64,000 nucleotides of DNA from the NCBI RefSeq assembly GCF_037126465.1, contig NC_088206.1:15418702-15482701 (forward strand). The letters are read 5' to 3'. The notes below the pieces were generated by a model. That model ran no database searches and had not been told where the DNA came from. It worked only from the letters and a program-made list of their open reading frames with translations. Positions 2,490 through 37,539 of the stretch are shown one piece after another. This stretch comes from Ornithodoros turicata. Taxonomy: Eukaryota; Arthropoda; Arachnida; Ixodida; Argasidae. The translations under genes and the position numbers were made by a program. Within the stretch, counting starts at the first letter, position 1, and each line of letters opens with the position of its first letter.

Positions 2490-2930
2490 TTGAAGGGGCA
2501 ATAAAGCAGAAAAATTTCTCCTTGCGGGATTAATGATGTTCGTTACCTTGACAGCAATACAAGAGGAACGGGGCTCGTCAGTTGCGTCGTCCGTGAGTTA
2601 TGCGTGAACGAAACCGTTAATTTGCGCTTTTCATCTAGTCTCCTTCTCAAGAAGCTCGGCAATGCGGAGCGGTCTCCCATTGGTTTCCACAAACGATTTG
2701 CCCAATCATAGCGCGAGATCGTCTGAGGAGACACATGACAGGCCGCTACATATTGTCGCGTTTTTTGAGAAGGTGAGAAAGAGGGAAAGCGCAAATTGCT
2801 GTTTCTTTCGTTCATAACTCACGAACGACGGAAGGGATTAATTCCGTTACTTTTGTACTGCTCTAAAGGTAACGCTGTCCTGAATTCACGCAATGGCGCG
2901 CGAAGTGAATTTTGAAGCTTACTATACACG
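2490..2930. mobile_element. TTAA-type MITE, copy 2
   Basis: The left end GAAGGGGCAATAAAGCAGAA aligns with copy 1, as do the internal GTTACCTTGACAGCAATACA and GGTCTCCCATTGG segments. The right end has decayed (GTAACGCTGTCCTGAATTCACG). It lies 6 bp right of the TA-flanked MITE. Confidence 0.6.
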
Positions 2931-3105
2931 GGACCTTACCATGGGTGTAGGTCCGTTAGCGACTTTATAAGGTCACGTGACATCACGTGAAAGCGCCCCC
3001 TCCCACGTGATCGACGTACATTTCGTGATTCTACGATGTAACACTCAGGATGAATTTGGTTGACGTGCTCCCAGAGAGCCCTTATACTCTAGCCCCCTGT
3101 CTGTC

Positions 3106-3400
3106 TTAAAGGGTACCAAATTGCAAAATTTTCACCTCATGAATGATGCTGTTACCTTTAGAGTAATTCAAGAGGAACGAGGCTCCTGAGCTCCCTCGTC
3201 ATACACTACGAACTATACCCCCGTTTACACAATGGTGTCATCGCTAGCCTCGTTTTACGTCACACCTCAAGGAAGACCGCTATATGCGCAGGCTATACTT
3301 AGCTGCCGATCGGAGAAGTTGAGGGCGAAAAGCGATGCGACTTCCCATTCTCCGCGAATTCTCCAGATTGAAGATTCCGAAGATTCTCCGTACTGTGAAA
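3106..3400. mobile_element. TTAA-type MITE, copy 3 (left half)
   Basis: TTAAAGGGTACCAAA followed by GATGCTGTTACC and AAGAGGAACGAGGCTCC matches the left half of copies 1 and 2. Similarity fades after about 3350, and no matching right terminus is visible. Confidence 0.5.
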
Positions 3401-4119
3401 CTGTGAAATTACAGCAGTAACAATGAAAGAAAAAGTAATTAAAAGGTTTTTCAACTAAAATAATTGAATGGGGGTATTTCAAAAAGAGTCTCGCCAAATA
3501 TTTACAGCGAACGATGACCCTATCAAGCTGACACATTTTAACGCGTGTAGTGCGATGCCCCAAAAATGCAGCTTTTTTTTTTAATTTTTGCTGTCGTTGT
3601 ACCTGTCCCCAGGCTCAGACTATAGAAATACAGGAGTAGTCGGTCCTGATCCCGCTGGCGCTAACAACTCCGCACTCTTCCTCGGTGTAGGTTCTTCAAG
3701 CTGTTCCCTGTCTGGCTGACACCACTGCCACGTTTTAAAATGCACACAAAAATAAATAGATAAAAATATACTTCCTATGCTATTGTGATTCGTTGCATGA
3801 GGCCTCCTTTTCTAAATAGTGCGACTGGCGTGAATTAATTCCTAGTGGATAAGCCACTGACTCGCGCTAAATAAATGTGCCCCAGTCAGCAAGAATGGGA
3901 AAACGAACAAATAAATCAATAGTTTAATATGAGAAACCACCCACTCTCTGCTTTACTCCGTTGACCCCACATTGTCCCTTACTCTCCCCCGCCCTCAGTT
4001 GTCTCGCGACGTAAACGCCCAATTATAATACTCTCCCCCGCCGAATGCCACGTTCCTTTACTACAGTCTTCCACCGCATGAGACTTAATGCTTTTACACC
4101 GGCTTTCGAACGGTTAGGC
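3401..4119. other. Non-coding stretch, nothing recognised
   Basis: No ORF with recognisable content and no repeat boundary seen. A few AT-rich runs occur near 3750-3930. Confidence 0.4.
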
Positions 4120-14480: not shown

Positions 14481-14537
14481 ATTTTTAACCAAATGCGCCT
14501 AAACGCTTAAAGGCCATTCATAATTGTCACAAAAAAG

Positions 14538-14642
14538 GCGCACGCCTCCCGTTTTCAACAAATCACGGCAGATAACGATATCATTCGCGGTGATGGTTGG
14601 GTACTAGCGTGCTATGCGGTGAAGTTAATTTCAAAGAGTGTA
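14538..14642. mobile_element. Partial TA-flanked MITE (CACTCTTA family), right arm only
   Basis: CCTCCCGTTTTCAACAAATC through GTGATGGTTGGG to TCAAAGAGTGTA matches the right arm of 2241-2483, with more divergence than other copies. Confidence 0.65.
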
Positions 14643-15931
14643 AGAGGGCATAGGCAAGCTTCCGTGTCGATGCATTATATTAACTTTCGCTAATTAACTT
14701 TTTAATTATCAAAGATAGGAGATTGACCCAATGCGAACACCGAATCCCTTGTGGTCACTGGCAACATTGCCGTTTTCAGAACAAAAATCGAGACAGTTGT
14801 AGCGCGAGGAAAGGACCTGGAAATAAGGCGATCTGGTGGTCGTTTATCGACACTGAAGTAGAAGCGCCGAATCGTTGAATAAATTTTCTCAAACAAGTAG
14901 AAGCGCTCCCGTTTTCCCTTCCTCTGTATGCGGGGGGACGCTGTTGGGGGGGAGGGGGGAGGAAGATGCTCTTCTGCGCATGGTGCGCTGCGGCAGCGTT
15001 CTCTCTCCCTTGGTGGGGGTCTCATCTTGGGTCGTCTGTTTACAAACATGTGACGTCACGATAAGACTCGTTCGAGGTTATATTTTGCCGTGGTGGGCAA
15101 GAAGCGGGAAAAACGCGTCTGCTGATAGCCTGAAAATGTTTATAGGTGCCCACCAGCACGCTTTGCGCGGCGGCGAAACGTAATCTATGACGTAGTGGTG
15201 CAGGTCGTCTATTGGCCTCACACTGTACAATACCACCACCATCGTCGTAAGAACGTCTACGGGCATCTGCCATGGACAATGGGCCTATAGGAGAGTGTTT
15301 CTTTCTGGTTTACGAGAAAGAGGGATAGGAAGGTTTAGGAGAGTGTGCTGGAGTGAGAAGGTTGCGGTGTTACGGACGGACGCATTCGAAAGGCACGAAA
15401 TACTCCCGACCACAGGGGAATGAGTTTGCGGAGAAACGGAGAAAGACAGTTGCTGAACGCAACGGTGCCTGACTTTTTTAATGGGCATGATTTCAGCATT
15501 AGCCAATGAATGCGCATCTATCTCAGTGTGAGCCAATGCGACAGATGTGCTTGCATCGCAACAGTAAAAAAGACGTGTTGCGTTAATCTACCCTTTATCG
15601 TATATGTTGCAACACGAGCGCGAGATTACAAGTGGATGATTCGAGACCCTGCATGTGTCTGACAGGGTGAAGGAAAAGAGCGATTTCACGACGTATTCAT
15701 CTTTTCATGCTGTTATGTCACCAGACTTGTTGTGATCGAGTTATGTGTAATATTCGCGGCGGGGGCGTAATAAGGCGGAGAAGAGAGTTTCTACCGCTAT
15801 TTTATCTCGATATTATTGCCGACTGGGTTTTATCTCGAGAGTGTTACCCATGGGACTATACCCGTCGCCACTTTTCTTATAACACAGAACGAGGATGTCA
15901 CATGATCCCCCAAAACACCCGACAGCACATT
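14643..15931. other. Unrecognised DNA
   Basis: No reading frame with identifiable content and no bounded repeat. A G-rich run lies at 14930-14962. Confidence 0.4.
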
Positions 15932-17986: not shown

Positions 17987-18646
17987 TACAGAAATATGAT
18001 GTTTGTAAAAAATGTCCGTTTCCTTTTTCGTTAGACGTAAAACGCCACCGCAGCGAACAACGCCATGTTGAATGAGCGTCGTGCGGAAATTCCATCGGGA
18101 TTTCTATTCACCGATAAATGTCGGGTAAACCATGTACACGCCAGGAAAAACATCGAAAAGTGCCGATTTCGCGAAAATCAATAAACATCGAAAAGCATAC
18201 GCCGAATCCACCCAAAAAACGCGGAACCGGACCTATGGGAGAGCCGGGTCATGGGTTAGTTACGCTAGTGGTCGCTGCAAGCGCCACATAGCATTATTGG
18301 GGAGAGGAAACGACATGTACACTATTATCATCATTGCCATCGTCGTTCGTCTGCTACCCTCTTCGTCGTTCTGAACACAGCCCACCATACATTGGCGCGG
18401 TTTCAGCAAATCACGTGGTAACAAATAGTGCTAGCTAGCGCCAAATCCCATAGCGAAGCGGCGTTTGCCAGAACTACACTCTTAAAAATGAACTTCACCA
18501 CATAGCACGCTTCTAGCCAACCATCACCCCGAATGACAACGTTCTCGCCCTGGATTTGTTGAAAACGGGAGGAGGAGCCTATTTTGTGCCTATTATGCAC
18601 GGCACAAAATAGGCTCCTCCTCCCGTTTTCAACAAATCAGGGGCGA
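17987..18646. repeat. 660-bp segmental duplication, left copy
   Basis: Base-for-base identical to 21492-22151 in my reading, a constant offset of 3505 bp. The copy starts inside the internal sequence of the 21286-22312 element and ends abruptly in the right arm of the embedded TA-flanked MITE. It includes the MITE insertion junction, so both copies descend from one already-inserted template. Confidence 0.93.
18475..18646. mobile_element. TA-flanked MITE (CACTCTTA family), truncated
   Basis: Starts with TA-CACTCTTAAAAATGAAC. The left arm and loop are complete, but the right arm stops at AATCAGGGGCGA, where it joins unrelated GC-rich DNA. Confidence 0.85.
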
Positions 18647-21491: not shown

Positions 21492-22151
21492 TACAGAAAT
21501 ATGATGTTTGTAAAAAATGTCCGTTTCCTTTTTCGTTAGACGTAAAACGCCACCGCAGCGAACAACGCCATGTTGAATGAGCGTCGTGCGGAAATTCCAT
21601 CGGGATTTCTATTCACCGATAAATGTCGGGTAAACCATGTACACGCCAGGAAAAACATCGAAAAGTGCCGATTTCGCGAAAATCAATAAACATCGAAAAG
21701 CATACGCCGAATCCACCCAAAAAACGCGGAACCGGACCTATGGGAGAGCCGGGTCATGGGTTAGTTACGCTAGTGGTCGCTGCAAGCGCCACATAGCATT
21801 ATTGGGGAGAGGAAACGACATGTACACTATTATCATCATTGCCATCGTCGTTCGTCTGCTACCCTCTTCGTCGTTCTGAACACAGCCCACCATACATTGG
21901 CGCGGTTTCAGCAAATCACGTGGTAACAAATAGTGCTAGCTAGCGCCAAATCCCATAGCGAAGCGGCGTTTGCCAGAACTACACTCTTAAAAATGAACTT
22001 CACCACATAGCACGCTTCTAGCCAACCATCACCCCGAATGACAACGTTCTCGCCCTGGATTTGTTGAAAACGGGAGGAGGAGCCTATTTTGTGCCTATTA
22101 TGCACGGCACAAAATAGGCTCCTCCTCCCGTTTTCAACAAATCAGGGGCGA
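21492..22151. repeat. 660-bp segmental duplication, right copy
   Basis: Identical to 17987-18646. Here the segment sits in its natural context: it is internal to an element with both TIRs, and the nested MITE is complete. This makes it the likely source copy. Confidence 0.93.
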
Positions 22152-22267
22152 GAACGTTGTCATTCGGGATGGTGGTTGGCTAGGAGCGTGCTATGTGGAG
22201 AAGTTCATTTTTAAGAGCCCTTTCACCATCATCACCACCACCCACCACCATCATTTTTAAGAGTGTA
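21980..22267. mobile_element. TA-flanked MITE (CACTCTTA family), nested, with modified 3' end
   Basis: TA-CACTCTTAAAAATGAAC at 21980 and AAGAGTG-TA at 22267. The right terminus is interrupted: CATTTTTAAGAG is followed by a CACCATCATCACCACCACC-type insert and then by a second ATTTTTAAGAGTG. The insert resembles the tail of the SINE at 52850. Confidence 0.85.
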
Positions 22268-29384: not shown

Positions 29385-29393
29385 GCTAGAACG

Positions 29394-29561
29394 ATTGTAT
29401 CTCATTACGGCCGAAGTCTCATTACGGCCGATGTCTCAATACGGCCGAAAGTCTCAATACGGCCGATAATCCTTTAATCCCCAAGTGTCTCATTACGGCC
29501 AAAGTCTCAATACGGCCGAAGGCAGTCTCATTACGGCCGAAGATGTCTCATAACGGCCAAA
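29394..29561 (+). repeat. Left TIR array (TCTCATTACGGCCGAAG units)
   Basis: About seven units of 15-20 bp. Variants include CATAACGGCC and CAATACGGCC, and AATCCTTTAATCCCCAAGTG interrupts the array. Confidence 0.9.
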
Positions 29562-30281
29562 TGTCAAAATGTGTATTGTAACCTGCATTGATATGCAATG
29601 TCGCAGCCAGGTATGGATATATATTCAGCAGGGTATAAGCCATGCACTGTGCCCTTATCATATTTATATACACATATTGCGAGACAAACGGTATGTTATC
29701 ATACCACAGCACAATGCAACATATTGTGTAATGTGTACTCCCACAAGGTAGTGTAGGCTGTGAAGCAGGCTACTATATGGAGTTAGCTACTTGTAGAGAG
29801 CTAGATGAATATTGGCTTTGTTGTGACACTTTTGGAGCCATCCTACAGTCATTGGCCATGACAGAGCACCTATCTCAGTCGATGCCAGTTTATTTCCATT
29901 CGCCTTACAATGATACAATTCTTGCTTCTGGAATGAGTAAACCTGCAAGAAGCGATGAGCAACCATGAATAGGCTAGAATATTAAAAACAACAACAACAA
30001 GCATTTGTCTCTACATGGCTCGTTTTAATGTGCACAAGCTGCACACGTGTTGATACGTGTCTGCTATTTCATACAAGGTTAACATAAATATTCATTTAGA
30101 CAAAAGAATGACAAGCCTTAAAAATGTGACTTCCTGGTAAACACAGAGCATGACCATGATATGCATATAGGTTCAGTAGTTCATTCCCTTAATGGAAACA
30201 TGTGAATATCAAATAGTAATACATTACAATTCATGAAATGATGCATGCATAACTTTCCATTTCTGGTTTCTTTTTTATAAA

Positions 30282-30313
30282 AGTAGTGCACGAATTAACA
30301 TTCGTGCACTACT
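30282..30313. repeat. Perfect 13-bp hairpin
   Basis: AGTAGTGCACGAA, a 6-nt loop, then TTCGTGCACTACT. Confidence 0.9.
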
Positions 30314-32834
30314 ACAAAATTTCTCACTTCACAACAGAACCTTATGATGATCTTAACAGCTCACCTCTTCGCCAGGACTCCCTGGGCAGCAACATCCTAT
30401 TAGCCATGTTGTTGTTTTTCTTTTTCGGAATCCTTCGTGCAGCCACATACCATGCCTGGAATGGAAAACCAGCTATAAATAACAATGCATTTGAATGACT
30501 TCCTCTTGAAGTATTTATTCTAATCAGATATGCTTTGTGCCTACTATGGTGCGCGAAGGCACATAAGTACAACATTTGCAGACGTTCGACGTAAGCAGTT
30601 CTTGGAGATCAATTCAAGTACGCCGACTTGCGCTTTTATTTTTGAAGAAATACGACGACAAATTTTAACAAATGAAATATGGCTCACAATGATACTAGTA
30701 AATGCTGCTGTACGGTGATGCATTATCGGTATCTTATCGTCTTCGAATAAATTTGTTGTTCCTAAACGCGCAACCAACTAGAAACGGCGCAAACCTACGA
30801 ACGGATACCGAGTTACATCTATTACAGGCACTTCAGCTGTTTTGATTAATTTAAATTACTCTTATGAGAATCCAACTATGTGTGGACAGCACACTACTAA
30901 GACAGGCAATCTACGAAAGCATTACTCACCAGAATTCCTGCTTGACTTGGTCTTGGTCAACACTGCGCGATATACGTTGAGGCTGTGGCGATTCATTCAA
31001 CTCGATTTTTACCGGAACAACAGGCGCTGCTCGAAAGACAACGACGGAAAATAGAGAGCCGCTATAAAGTCCGCTAATTTGCACATTACAGCACTACAAA
31101 GCGATATATGAACACGTCGTAAACAGCAACCGCTCGCTCACACACACAAGAAACGAGGTACCCAACGTTGCTAGACACATGGCTAGACACCATCCGAACT
31201 CCGAAGTGAGAGTAGCAAAACAACAAGAATCAAAACACGAAAGGAAGAGTATTGATCCCCCCTCCTTCTATAGCATGCAAAACGTGATTTGCGCTGAGAT
31301 GAACATATATGTTCATGACGCGAGTAATTTTCACTTTTCACTGATCCAAAGGAGGTCACGTGGGGTTGCTCGACGCTTGCGAAATTGCGAAATCAACAAT
31401 GAAAATGGCGAAACGAAACTTGTGAATCGTGCATTTGCTCTTCATGGTAGCTGCCAAAAAATCGAATCAAACTTATGGGACACTGGATTACAGGTATGTT
31501 GGCATCTTTTTCATTCCTGCATATCATTACACTATACGTGAATACATGGTGTCATGTCATGGGTGTCATGTCTCACGATGCTGGGGAAGTAGTTGCATGG
31601 GGAAGTGTGCATGGTTCTAGACTTTTAATTCTTGATCGCGTAATCGAAATATCGGCACCTCTCGCATTGTGGCTTGCATGTGACCAACCAAGTGCTGTTC
31701 CCTTACTAGCGCTTCCTACAAACGACAAAACGAAACATGTGGGAATGTATATTTTTGATTACTCATATGTAACAAGAAAATGTAACGTTTTCAGGTTGCT
31801 GCCACTACTCCATGTGCCCGCAATTGTCTTGCGTGTATGATTACACTAACGGCGTCGCCCACCACGGCGGAAGTGTTTTGCGTACACGCGTTTCAGCATG
31901 AAGCCTGCAGGTAACATCTGATGTTTACCCTTCGGATATTCTGAATTTACATATTGTCGCTTAGAGGAATTCCGAATGCCCAGAGTGACACACACTTTTA
32001 ACATTGTGACATCAGTGCAGTGGCATAAGCTCTAATGTAGTGCCCCACGAAAATGAACAAGGGGTAGTGGTTTATCCAGAATCCCAAGCACGAGAAGGGT
32101 GTTGGAAAAAATTGTTGGAATAGTTACGTCATTACAGCTTAACATATCATTACAGACGTATCTGAAGCTGAAATCGCAAGGGCACCCTCTGTAGGGGGTG
32201 CACAGGCAAAAAAGTTAGGGGGGGTCTGGATAAAGCACTGACGAGGGGGACTCCTCCACCCCATGTCAAGCCTCATAAAACACCTCCTGAAATAGTTTCC
32301 TGGCTATGCAGCTGCATTATTATGACGTAATTGTCATTGTTGTCCATAATTCTTGAATATGTTTTGAATATATGAAAAAAAAAAGTCTGCTTGACAGCAT
32401 ATGTCTTATAGTCATCATCAAACAAGAGCATATGTCATTTTGTTCAGTGGCTTATGTACTTTTTTTGTAAATTTCAGGTGGACGTAAATTGTAGAAGGCA
32501 GCTAGTGGGGGAGAAGATCATGTTCATAGGTCATGTGACTCCTGGAGCTCCCAGTGGGCTCCCTTGTGGAGTACTTTTCAGAACACACACACATACAGTT
32601 TGCTCACAGAACCAACGAGTAGGATGTTGCTTGACTACTGAGAGAAAATGGCGTAACACATACAAATATCGTGTGACACATATGACAATAAAAACATAAA
32701 GACACTGTCGCAATATTGTGTGCATGAACCATTGTGTGTGACACAAGCCGTGGGGGCACACCGCCTCGGACACATTTTGGGAAGCATAAAACACAGTATA
32801 TACAGAGCTACTATGGTGGATGCTTCTTTTTTCT

Positions 32835-33024
32835 TTTTGGCCGTTATGATAGACATCTTCGGCCGTAATGAGACTACCTTCGGCCGTATTGAGACTTTGG
32901 CCGTAACGAGACACTTGGGGATTAAGGGATTTTCGGCCGTAATGAGACTTTCGGCCGTAATGAGACTTTCGGCCGTAATGAGACTTCGGCCGTAATGAGA
33001 CTCGGGCCGTAATGAGATGTTACC
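32835..33024 (-). repeat. Right TIR array (inverted)
   Basis: About eight units reading CTTCGGCCGTAATGAGA on the plus strand, with CACTTGGGGATTAAGGGATT at the position matching the left-array interruption. It has one more unit than the left array. Confidence 0.9.
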
Positions 33025-33033
33025 GCTAGAACG

Positions 33034-36002: not shown

Positions 36003-36235
36003 TGGAAGAAAGGGTTCGGGCGACCGCGAAACTAAATAGGTACTAACAAAATCTGAGGCAGACAACGACGATATAGGAAGTAGGAAAAGGGGGAGTTATT
36101 TATTGACTAGTGGAAAATTAAGGGGGAAGTCAACGTTGCCACGGAAGCTCCGCCTTCGTCAGGACGGAAGAATGAGAAATGACACTTGGACTTGGAGACA
36201 CAATCGGGGGGTCCCGCCACCTATATATTATATAT
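36003..36235 (-). mobile_element. Penelope-like element terminal-repeat fragment
   Basis: Read on the minus strand: CCTGACGAAGGCGGAGCTTC, CGTGGCAACGTTGAC, then AATAAATAACTCCCCCTTTT. This echoes the 35692-35985 sequence (CGAAACGTCGAC then TTAATAAACTCCCCTTTGTG) and is bounded on both sides by (TA)n. The shared order of hammerhead-like core and AATAAA/CTCCCC block suggests one family of pLTRs. No reverse transcriptase or GIY-YIG domain is present. Confidence 0.5.
36132..36162 (-). ncRNA. Second decayed hammerhead-like motif
   Basis: Minus strand: CTGACGA (intact first box), A, GGCGGA-GCT-TCCGTG stem II with its closing pair lost, then GCAAC and GTT. GAAA has become GCAA, so it is predicted inactive. 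A C instead of G at the base of stem II and an A in GCAA would restore the consensus layout. Confidence 0.45.
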
Positions 36236-36240
36236 ATATA

Positions 36241-37539
36241 AGCCCTTTGCTTGACGGCACTTTATATCGCAAGAATTATCGCCCTGACGGCAACCGCTGG
36301 CTCCTCGTTGTTCCATGTACCTTGCAAGGCCACATTATTCGCAGTTGCCACGACGATCCTACTGCCGGGCACCTGGGCTTTCTCAAGACTTACACTCGCG
36401 TCGCTGACCGTTTCTTCTGGAAAGGCATGTATCAGTCTGTTTGGAAACACGTCCGAGCTTGTGTCCCCTGCCAACATCGTAAGCGGCCGCCAGGTCTTCC
36501 CGCAGGGCTTCTTCAACCGCTTCCTCCACCAGAGAAGCCTTTCGACCGCCTCGGGATTGATTTCCTCGGACCCTTCCCGCCCTCAGCGTCTGGTAACCGC
36601 TGGATAATCGTCGCCGTGGATCACATGACCCGCTATGTAGAAACACAAGCCGTTCCCACTAATAGTGCGGACGCAGTGACGACCTTCCTTCTCCACAACA
36701 TAGTGCTTCGCCATGGTGCTCCTCGTACGTTGCTCAGCGATCGTGGCACTCCTTTCCTTTCTGCTGTCGTCAGCGCACTGCTTCGAGCCTGCGGCACCGT
36801 CCACGCCCTCACCACCTCATATCATCCGCAAACCAATGGCCTGACCGAGCGTTTCAACCGCACCCTTGGCGACATGCTTTCGATATACGTCTCCTGTGAC
36901 CACACCAATTGGGATGTCGTCCTCCCTTTCGTCACCTTCGCCTATAATACTGCTCGTCAGCGTACCACTGCATACAGCCCTTATTACCTTCTGTACTCCC
37001 GTGCTCCGACCACAATCTTGGACACTCTTTTTCCTTGCCCCCCGCACTCTGATGACCCAGACGTGGTTCTCGACGCGGCCGCCCATGCCGAGGAGACTCG
37101 GCAACTCGCGCGTTTGCGTACCTTCGAGAATCAGGACACAGAGCGCTTTCGGTACGACGAACGCCATCGGCAAGTCCGCTACGAAGTCGGCGACGAAGTC
37201 CTTCTATGGACTCCGCTTCGTGTACCCGGCCGCTCATCGAAGCTTATGAAGCGCTATGTTGGCCCATACCGTGTCACTCGAAAGCTTTCACCCCTCAACT
37301 ATGAAGTGACGCCCCTTACCCCACCACCTGATCGTCGATCCCGTGGCACCGAAGTCGTCCATGTCATGCGGATGAAGCCTTTCGTCACTCTCCCTGGCCA
37401 CACACCCGAGACCACGGCTTCACAGTCCACCGCTCCCGACATCACCGGGCTTCCGTCCTCCGAGGGGGGGCAATGTAGTGAAGATAACGACACGTCAGGT
37501 GACGACGATGACTCGCGCCACTCCCGCGCGGCTGTCTGA
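36241..37539 (+). pseudogene. Ty3/gypsy integrase (pol C-terminal fragment)
   Basis: An uninterrupted frame of about 430 codons encodes a retrotransposon integrase, which would insert element cDNA into the nuclear genome. Zinc-binding HHCC: H at 36349, H at 36370, C at 36460, C at 36469 (H-x6-H-x29-C-x2-C). Catalytic DDE: D of GIDFLGPF at 36559, D of LLSDRGTPF at 36739 and E of NGLTERFNRTL at 36847, with 35 residues between the second D and E. A GPY/F module (KRYVGPYRV) is near 37250-37276. The frame ends at 37537-37539, inside the LTR. No chromodomain and no env follow. The reading frame is intact, so this copy may be young, but with no start or upstream pol it cannot act alone. Confidence 0.93.

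Follow-up and report, generated by a model that had tools for sequence, protein, structure and literature searches.

The window analyzed here is a 64,000-nt stretch of the Ornithodoros turicata genome (NC_088206.1, positions 15,418,702-15,482,701, forward strand; the host genome is 1.07 Gb). It contains a 3,632-bp insertion, spanning 29393-33024, that is bounded by two inverted arrays of the 17-bp unit TCTCATTACGGCCGAAG and is composed as follows.

29385..29392, + strand: left target site duplication, 8 bp, GCTAGAAC (flank match, copy comparison)
29393..29399, + strand: left 7-bp terminal motif GATTGTA, not inverted relative to the right end (identical in 20/20 fetched copies)
29400..29562, + strand: left array, 8 units of ~17 bp (TCTCATTACGGCCGAAG) (unit scan)
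29468..29487, + strand: interruption AATCCTTTAATCCCCAAGTG separating units 4 and 5, common to the right arm (arm alignment)
29563..32835, no strand: interior, common to other copies, without a Pfam match in six frames (copy alignment, profile search)
32836..33017, - strand: right array, 9 units by a looser count or 8 in a 3-mismatch scan, with the same interruption as the left (unit scan)
33018..33024, - strand: right 7-bp terminal motif TGTTACC, inward reading GGTAACA (identical in 17/17 copies with a right end)
33025..33032, + strand: right target site duplication, 8 bp, GCTAGAAC (flank match, copy comparison)

Inverted arrays, ends and neighboring features

Scanning the 64 kb for the unit at up to 3 mismatches gave 16 matches, every one inside the two arrays (shuffled sequence gave a mean of 0.13), and a looser count assigned 8 units to the left arm and 9 to the right. 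In an alignment of the two arms, 155 of 162 bases match and both contain the interruption AATCCYTTAATCCCCAAGTG, which confirms the proposal of an initial sequence-only reading that two inverted arrays share one interruption. Positions 1, 3, 4 and 8-13 are invariant across the 17 units, part of this apparent conservation being built in by a unit-picking pattern that tolerates three substitutions. Long inverted ends made of short tandem units are the structure of a Foldback-type transposon.

The sequence GCTAGAACG is found in the window at the two flanks only, and a 9-mer match arose by chance in 157 of 200,000 draws of two random 20-bp window stretches. The flanking duplication had accordingly been read as 9 bp. 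However, the left end is GATTGTATCTC in all 20 fetched copies and the right end is TGTTACC in all 17 that have one, independent of the flank, and because copy ends are constant whatever surrounds them, the first base of the element is the G at 29393. Since the element starts with its own G, the duplication is 8 bp here and the ninth matching base is a coincidence; the duplication itself stands, one base shorter than first claimed.

Several other features lie in the window. A 660-bp direct repeat (17987-18646 and 21492-22151, 100% identity, 3.5 kb apart) has flanks without an obvious target duplication and ends unlike an LTR. An open 499-aa frame at 36040-37539 carries Integrase_H2C2, rve and p58 C-terminal domains, as in Ty3-type retrotransposons, and a 195-aa frame at 23369-23956 matches Transposase_1, as in mariner elements. 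A related palindromic, MITE-like element of ~240 bp occurs at 2241-2483, 18475-18646, 21980-22217 and 14513-14645, the copies being 80-94% alike.

Copies, target duplications and empty sites

Searching the genome with the left end gave 40 scored matches, each at 97-100%, of 1,384 candidates, and an exact unit-pair pattern matched 983 + 965 = 1,948 times (reversed control, 0 + 0). Complete copies hold 5 to 7 exact unit pairs each (18 copies), so that the genome would contain ~300 copy-equivalents, a rough inference and not a count. From the 40 listed matches we fetched the 20 best after the window's own; L041, L042 and L054, with the right end absent from the fetched stretch, were excluded, leaving a complete set of 18 (the window copy and 17 others). 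Neither outcome that would have refuted the sequence-only reading was seen: the paired arrays recur in the genome, and aligned complete copies share a common interior with duplications in 17 of 18, where unrelated interiors without a consistent duplication would have been the refuting result. The unit pair was not found in collections of viral contigs and genome contigs, nor the element in a phage collection, all of them non-animal; these collections may omit near relatives of the host.

The duplication is a perfect 8 bp in 13 of the 18 copies, 9 bp in three (L049, L052 and L056) and 10 bp in one (L048), and L051 is the one copy without a duplication. In a few copies (e.g. L040 and L045) the flank repeats the last bases of the element, so the duplication can be read 1-2 bases longer. 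A variable length of 8-10 bp is within the range for the Mutator (MULE) superfamily, given as 8-11 bp in the available text of PMC6446971.

To look for empty sites, we joined the two flanks at each of the 18 sites and searched the joined sequences against 87 fetched loci and the window. Gapless empty junctions were obtained for 3 of 18 sites: the L040 site in L059 (99.3% over 293 bp), the L053 site in L047 (99.4% over 180 bp) and the L047 site in L053 (91.1% over 180 bp, with 16 gap positions, all at least 40 bp from the junction). In the L053/L047 pair the two insertions are reciprocal, each in a copy of the same repeat. For the site in the window, no empty counterpart was found among the 87 fetched loci. 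Dispersal, duplications in 17 of 18 copies and empty junctions are the marks of mobility expected of a Foldback-type transposon and, together with the constant ends, bear out the original description of a complete, bounded insertion.

We also considered whether the feature arose artificially during library preparation or assembly, for instance by concatenation of an adapter with the same core letters. The ten-letter core CATTACGGCC does recur in the literature, in 127 papers, probably owing to a cDNA adapter. Yet the units vary within the arms, in parallel between both arms, and the copies have distinct duplications, empty sites and diverged older members; because of the empty sites we reject this explanation, whose probability we regard as negligible.

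Between the window copy and the 17 others, interior included, identity is 96.0-99.4%. Members of the main young group are 98.5-99.9% identical to one another, and L050, L052, L053 and L058 are 95.9-97.3% identical to that group (gaps omitted in all these values). The loci L067, L068 and L069, tried as longer partner elements, were rejected as such and are older diverged copies with larger matches at 78-90% and homologous parts that are rearranged or interrupted. Because copies were chosen among the best matches to the window, young copies are over-represented. In the right arm, the window copy exceeds 15 of the 17 other complete copies (8+8) by one unit and L039 and L052 (8+7) by two, and L050 and L058 carry ~190 bp extra near interior position 800. 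At G000:C1:49338772-49346076 two ~3.6-kb elements apparently lie head to tail, with ~70 bp separating the matched unit pairs.

The interior and FLYWCH-MULE transposases of the same genome

A Pfam search of six frames of 29394-33024 (X at stops) returned 0 families at E ≤ 1. In the window copy the five longest frames measure 162, 157, 129, 129 and 112 aa; these are disrupted in 17, 17, 16, 14 and 17, respectively, of the 17 other copies. In tblastn, 38 MULE loci were each represented by their longest frame, and none of these frames matched the 18 copies; 14 of the frames are similar to L026 and at least one, that of L065, differs from the MULE frame of its locus. In the control, the L026 frame matched related MULEs at 3e-66 or lower. 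Neither the frame over the right end (array and some flank included) nor the longest wholly interior frame had a homologue in protein searches, and Rfam and tRNA scans of the window gave no match. The absence of a known transposase noted at the outset is upheld by the Pfam, frame and tblastn results, and the insertion at 29393-33024 is mobile, has defined borders and lacks a transposase. Three shorter frames (90, 88 and 81 aa) are disrupted in just 2, 4 and 7 of the 17 other copies, and variable sites fall at third positions in 12 of 24 cases in the 88-aa frame and 12 of 29 in the 81-aa frame, a slight excess; the remaining shorter frames have no consistent third-position excess. As the three frames are mostly open and the 88- and 81-aa ones show this excess, the interior might conceivably encode a short peptide. 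A perfect 14-bp stem with a 4-base loop occurs in the interior at 30282-30313; a hairpin motif of a different kind is also present in some elements of the Meloidogyne family Tm1, according to the available text of PMC3169594.

The interior could alternatively be a host segment captured between MULE ends (Pack-MULE type), as the sequence-only reading had allowed. Host fragments are frequent in MULE derivatives, as described in the accessible part of PMC5225508, and the CpG ratio is lower in the interior (0.78) than in the flanks (1.07 and 1.04). However, the interior is common to the sampled copies, has no Pfam match, and its longest wholly contained frame has no homologue; with no match in the searches made and an interior that is shared and not unique, captured host sequence is unsupported, and we judge it very unlikely.

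Searches of the genome for transposases covered the MULE type. PF10551 gave at least 150 matches (150 scored of 820 candidates) and the transposase of L026 gave 94. The L026 transposase contains FLYWCH (9.4e-9) and MULE (4.9e-17) domains, and L026 and L038 encode open 482-aa proteins with both; the L025 frame is shorter. This domain pair is characteristic of the Phantom group and is present in the relatives L026 and L038, the window element itself being without a transposase. In L025, L026, L027 and L038, inverted arrays of ~16-bp units such as ATCAAAAGGCCGAAAA and AATCATAAGGCCGAA, with the core TCA..A.GGCCGAA, flank the transposase, and L030 has a GGCCGAA array on one side only. In L059, L064 and L065 the transposase likewise lies between inverted arrays, here of units such as GGTCCCGGAAGAAAT and GGAAGAAATGTCCCC. 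Beside related transposases, 5 of 10 further 1-kb stretches bear arrays of either kind, and a sixth, L078, has a short array. Transposases of the first (GGCCGAA) clade are ~65-100% identical to one another and ~29-33% identical to those of the second, which are 48-52% identical among themselves.

L025-L027 are three near-identical copies with short, G-starting 9-bp ends (GGGTCCCTA / GGGTGGCAA) and 9-bp duplications read off the flanks, with a 10-bp match in L025 and L026. L059 and L065 have 9-bp flank matches, and L038 and L064 gave no clear reading. Relatives of the L026 transposase are found in ticks (Hyalomma, Ixodes, Rhipicephalus), a moth, a snail, a nematode, an aphid, a rotifer and a fungus. 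The fungal relatives (P0005, P0011 and P0019, 37-40% identity) are named from Rhizophagus irregularis and perhaps reflect horizontal transfer or contamination.

Shuffling each relative's unit and scoring it against the window's unit showed that one transposase clade carries units, of the TCATAAGGCCGAA type, that are significantly like that of the window element. The score was reached in 6 of 5,000 shuffles for L026, 3 for L038 and 6 for L080 (unit as in L026), and in 110 for L081, a weaker likeness. Units of the other FLYWCH-MULE clade are dissimilar (3,331 of 5,000 for L059, 3,911 for L064 and 4,809 for L074), and four other arrays gave 2,866 to 3,898 of 5,000. In a separate run of 10,000 shuffles the score was reached 20 times for L026, 9 for L038, 1 for L030 and 4,993 for another L038 array. 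On these unit sequences the likeness to the GGCCGAA clade appears significant and specific, and the evidence is strong but not conclusive, because several comparisons were made and shuffles preserve composition but not history. No DNA similarity was found between the window element and L025, L026, L027 or L038, and the unit and terminal motif sequences differ.

An element combining the exact unit with a transposase gene was not found, the unit pair occurring in 0 of 54 MULE-associated stretches. These comprise 30 MULE loci, 8 further loci, 10 stretches of 1 kb and 6 of ~1.4 kb, many of them short or one-sided, and represent a sample of the MULE loci in the genome, with 150 of 820 candidates scored; L010 and L060 hold one unit-like match each. 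At L070:95-210 there is a GGTAACA end with the shared interruption and part of an array, next to an interior unrelated to that of the window element; no second end was found within 11 kb. Similarity 8.7 kb from the L070 end is to the longest frame of L065, not to its MULE frame.

An 8-bp duplication by itself fits hAT or P-type elements too. The window element could be a Foldback-like element of another superfamily (hAT, or P-type like Galileo), its 8-bp duplication and repetitive ends having arisen independently of MULEs. The commonest duplication is indeed 8 bp, which counts against the MULE reading in that the readable array-bearing autonomous relatives have 9 bp, and Foldback ends do exist on the P-type element Galileo (available text of PMC3688188). 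Three observations point the other way: the duplications vary over 8-10 bp, as is described for Tm1 (8-10 bp) and close to Muta1 (8 or 9 bp); the unit resembles that of one FLYWCH-MULE clade of this genome, significantly and specifically; and the short asymmetric terminal motifs are like those of the array-bearing MULEs here and those reported for Tm1. We consider another superfamily unlikely.

Proposed mobilization and comparison with known systems

We interpret the element, with a probability of roughly 0.87, as a non-autonomous Mutator (MULE) DNA transposon with Foldback-type ends that is moved in trans by a FLYWCH-MULE (Phantom-type) transposase. Its placement among MULEs is based on the range of duplications, the end design and the unit likeness, and the resemblance to Mutator-like elements noted from the sequence alone is supported by the presence in this genome of FLYWCH-MULEs that have a comparable structure and a unit resembling this one. 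The best reading of the copies is a recently amplified, non-autonomous Foldback-type MULE. We infer that the enzyme moving it is a FLYWCH-MULE transposase, supplied by another element, which would bind the 17-bp units arrayed at each end; by analogy, these units are putative transposase-binding sites. Multiple bound units would help to pair the two ends, the paired element would be excised by cut-and-paste, and insertion at staggered cuts, usually of 8 bp and sometimes of 9 or 10, would generate the duplications. Muta1, which is an active MULE, provides a precedent both for an end design of this type and for 8 or 9-bp duplications (available text of PMC5225508).

A broader reading, which we offer tentatively and would put at somewhat below even odds, is that Foldback-type FLYWCH-MULEs have radiated within one genome, each transposase clade with a 15-17 bp end unit of its own, units and DNA-binding fingers diversifying in step. 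The window element would then represent an enzyme-free lineage of great success, in which a single 3.6-kb non-coding interior persists from old (78-90%) to young (~99%) copies, perhaps owing to a role of the interior itself in amplification. This possible unit-transposase radiation within one genome is the more novel part of the findings; the analysis also documents recent amplification of a 3.6-kb MULE that has no transposase of its own. The genome provides many natural copies of one array together with related transposases with similar and dissimilar units, and binding specificity is therefore testable by unit swapping. The copies would also be a ready source of repeats for ectopic recombination.

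Among the top-ranked results of our literature searches, no paper describes the family. An arthropod MULE survey (PMC13359780) includes, in its accessible text, three species of Ixodida, whose MULEs are 2.7-4.2 kb long with 87-144 bp ends.

Among the Foldback elements, Tetris and the P-type Galileo have, like the window element, long internally repetitive ends. Tetris of Drosophila virilis is described in the available part of its report as non-autonomous, with 8-10 bp duplications and without a known transposase (PMC4079207), and differs in that its repeats are far longer (TIR-220) than the 17-bp unit. Galileo, with Foldback ends on a P-type element, is a precedent for binding sites within such repeats, and its authors stated that end repeats of Foldback and Phantom elements were untested as transposase-binding sites as of 2013 (available text of PMC3688188).

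Within the same genome, the FLYWCH-MULE elements L025, L026, L027 and L038 likewise have inverted arrays, of ~16-bp units, but encode a transposase, unlike the window element. L025-L027 share with it short ends starting with G and differ in having 9-bp duplications, against mostly 8 bp.

The Aedes aegypti MULEs Muta1 and Muta5 are described as having a short terminal motif followed by 9 tandem copies of 12 bp (Muta1) or 15 bp (Muta5), and Muta1, which generates 8 or 9-bp duplications and has many non-autonomous derivatives, was classed by its authors as a type 2 Foldback element (available text of PMC5225508). Long inverted ends of tandem repeats, 8/9-bp duplications and non-autonomous derivatives are thus points of likeness. 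In contrast, Muta1 encodes a transposase and moves in yeast (PMC5225508), and the window element encodes none found; the 10-bp terminal motif of Muta1 is palindromic, whereas the 7-bp ends of the window element are non-inverted; and Muta1 derivatives mostly have varied interiors, while the sampled copies of the window element have one 3.6-kb interior.

Copies of Tm1, a Mutator/Foldback family of Meloidogyne, are mostly non-autonomous and are flanked by duplications of 8-10 bp; their 7-bp ends are asymmetric and lie outside the inverted part, their arrays consist of a ~14-bp unit with a distinct interruption, and the transposase of the family is of the Phantom type (available text of PMC3169594). 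Homology of the unit to that of Tm1, suggestive by eye, was rejected: when two versions of the window's unit were compared with three Tm1 variants, 899 to 1,166 of 5,000 shuffles reached the score, and 2,320 of 10,000 did so in a second test. Tm1 differs in its nematode host, its unit length and a unit sequence without significant similarity, but shares most of the end design, including the 7-bp non-inverted ends, interrupted arrays and 8-10 bp duplications. The suggestion of a new family in the sequence-only reading accordingly holds at the family level and not for the kind of element: we class the element as a new family within a kind already represented by Muta1 and Tm1, the Ixodida MULEs of PMC13359780 being compared by published description.
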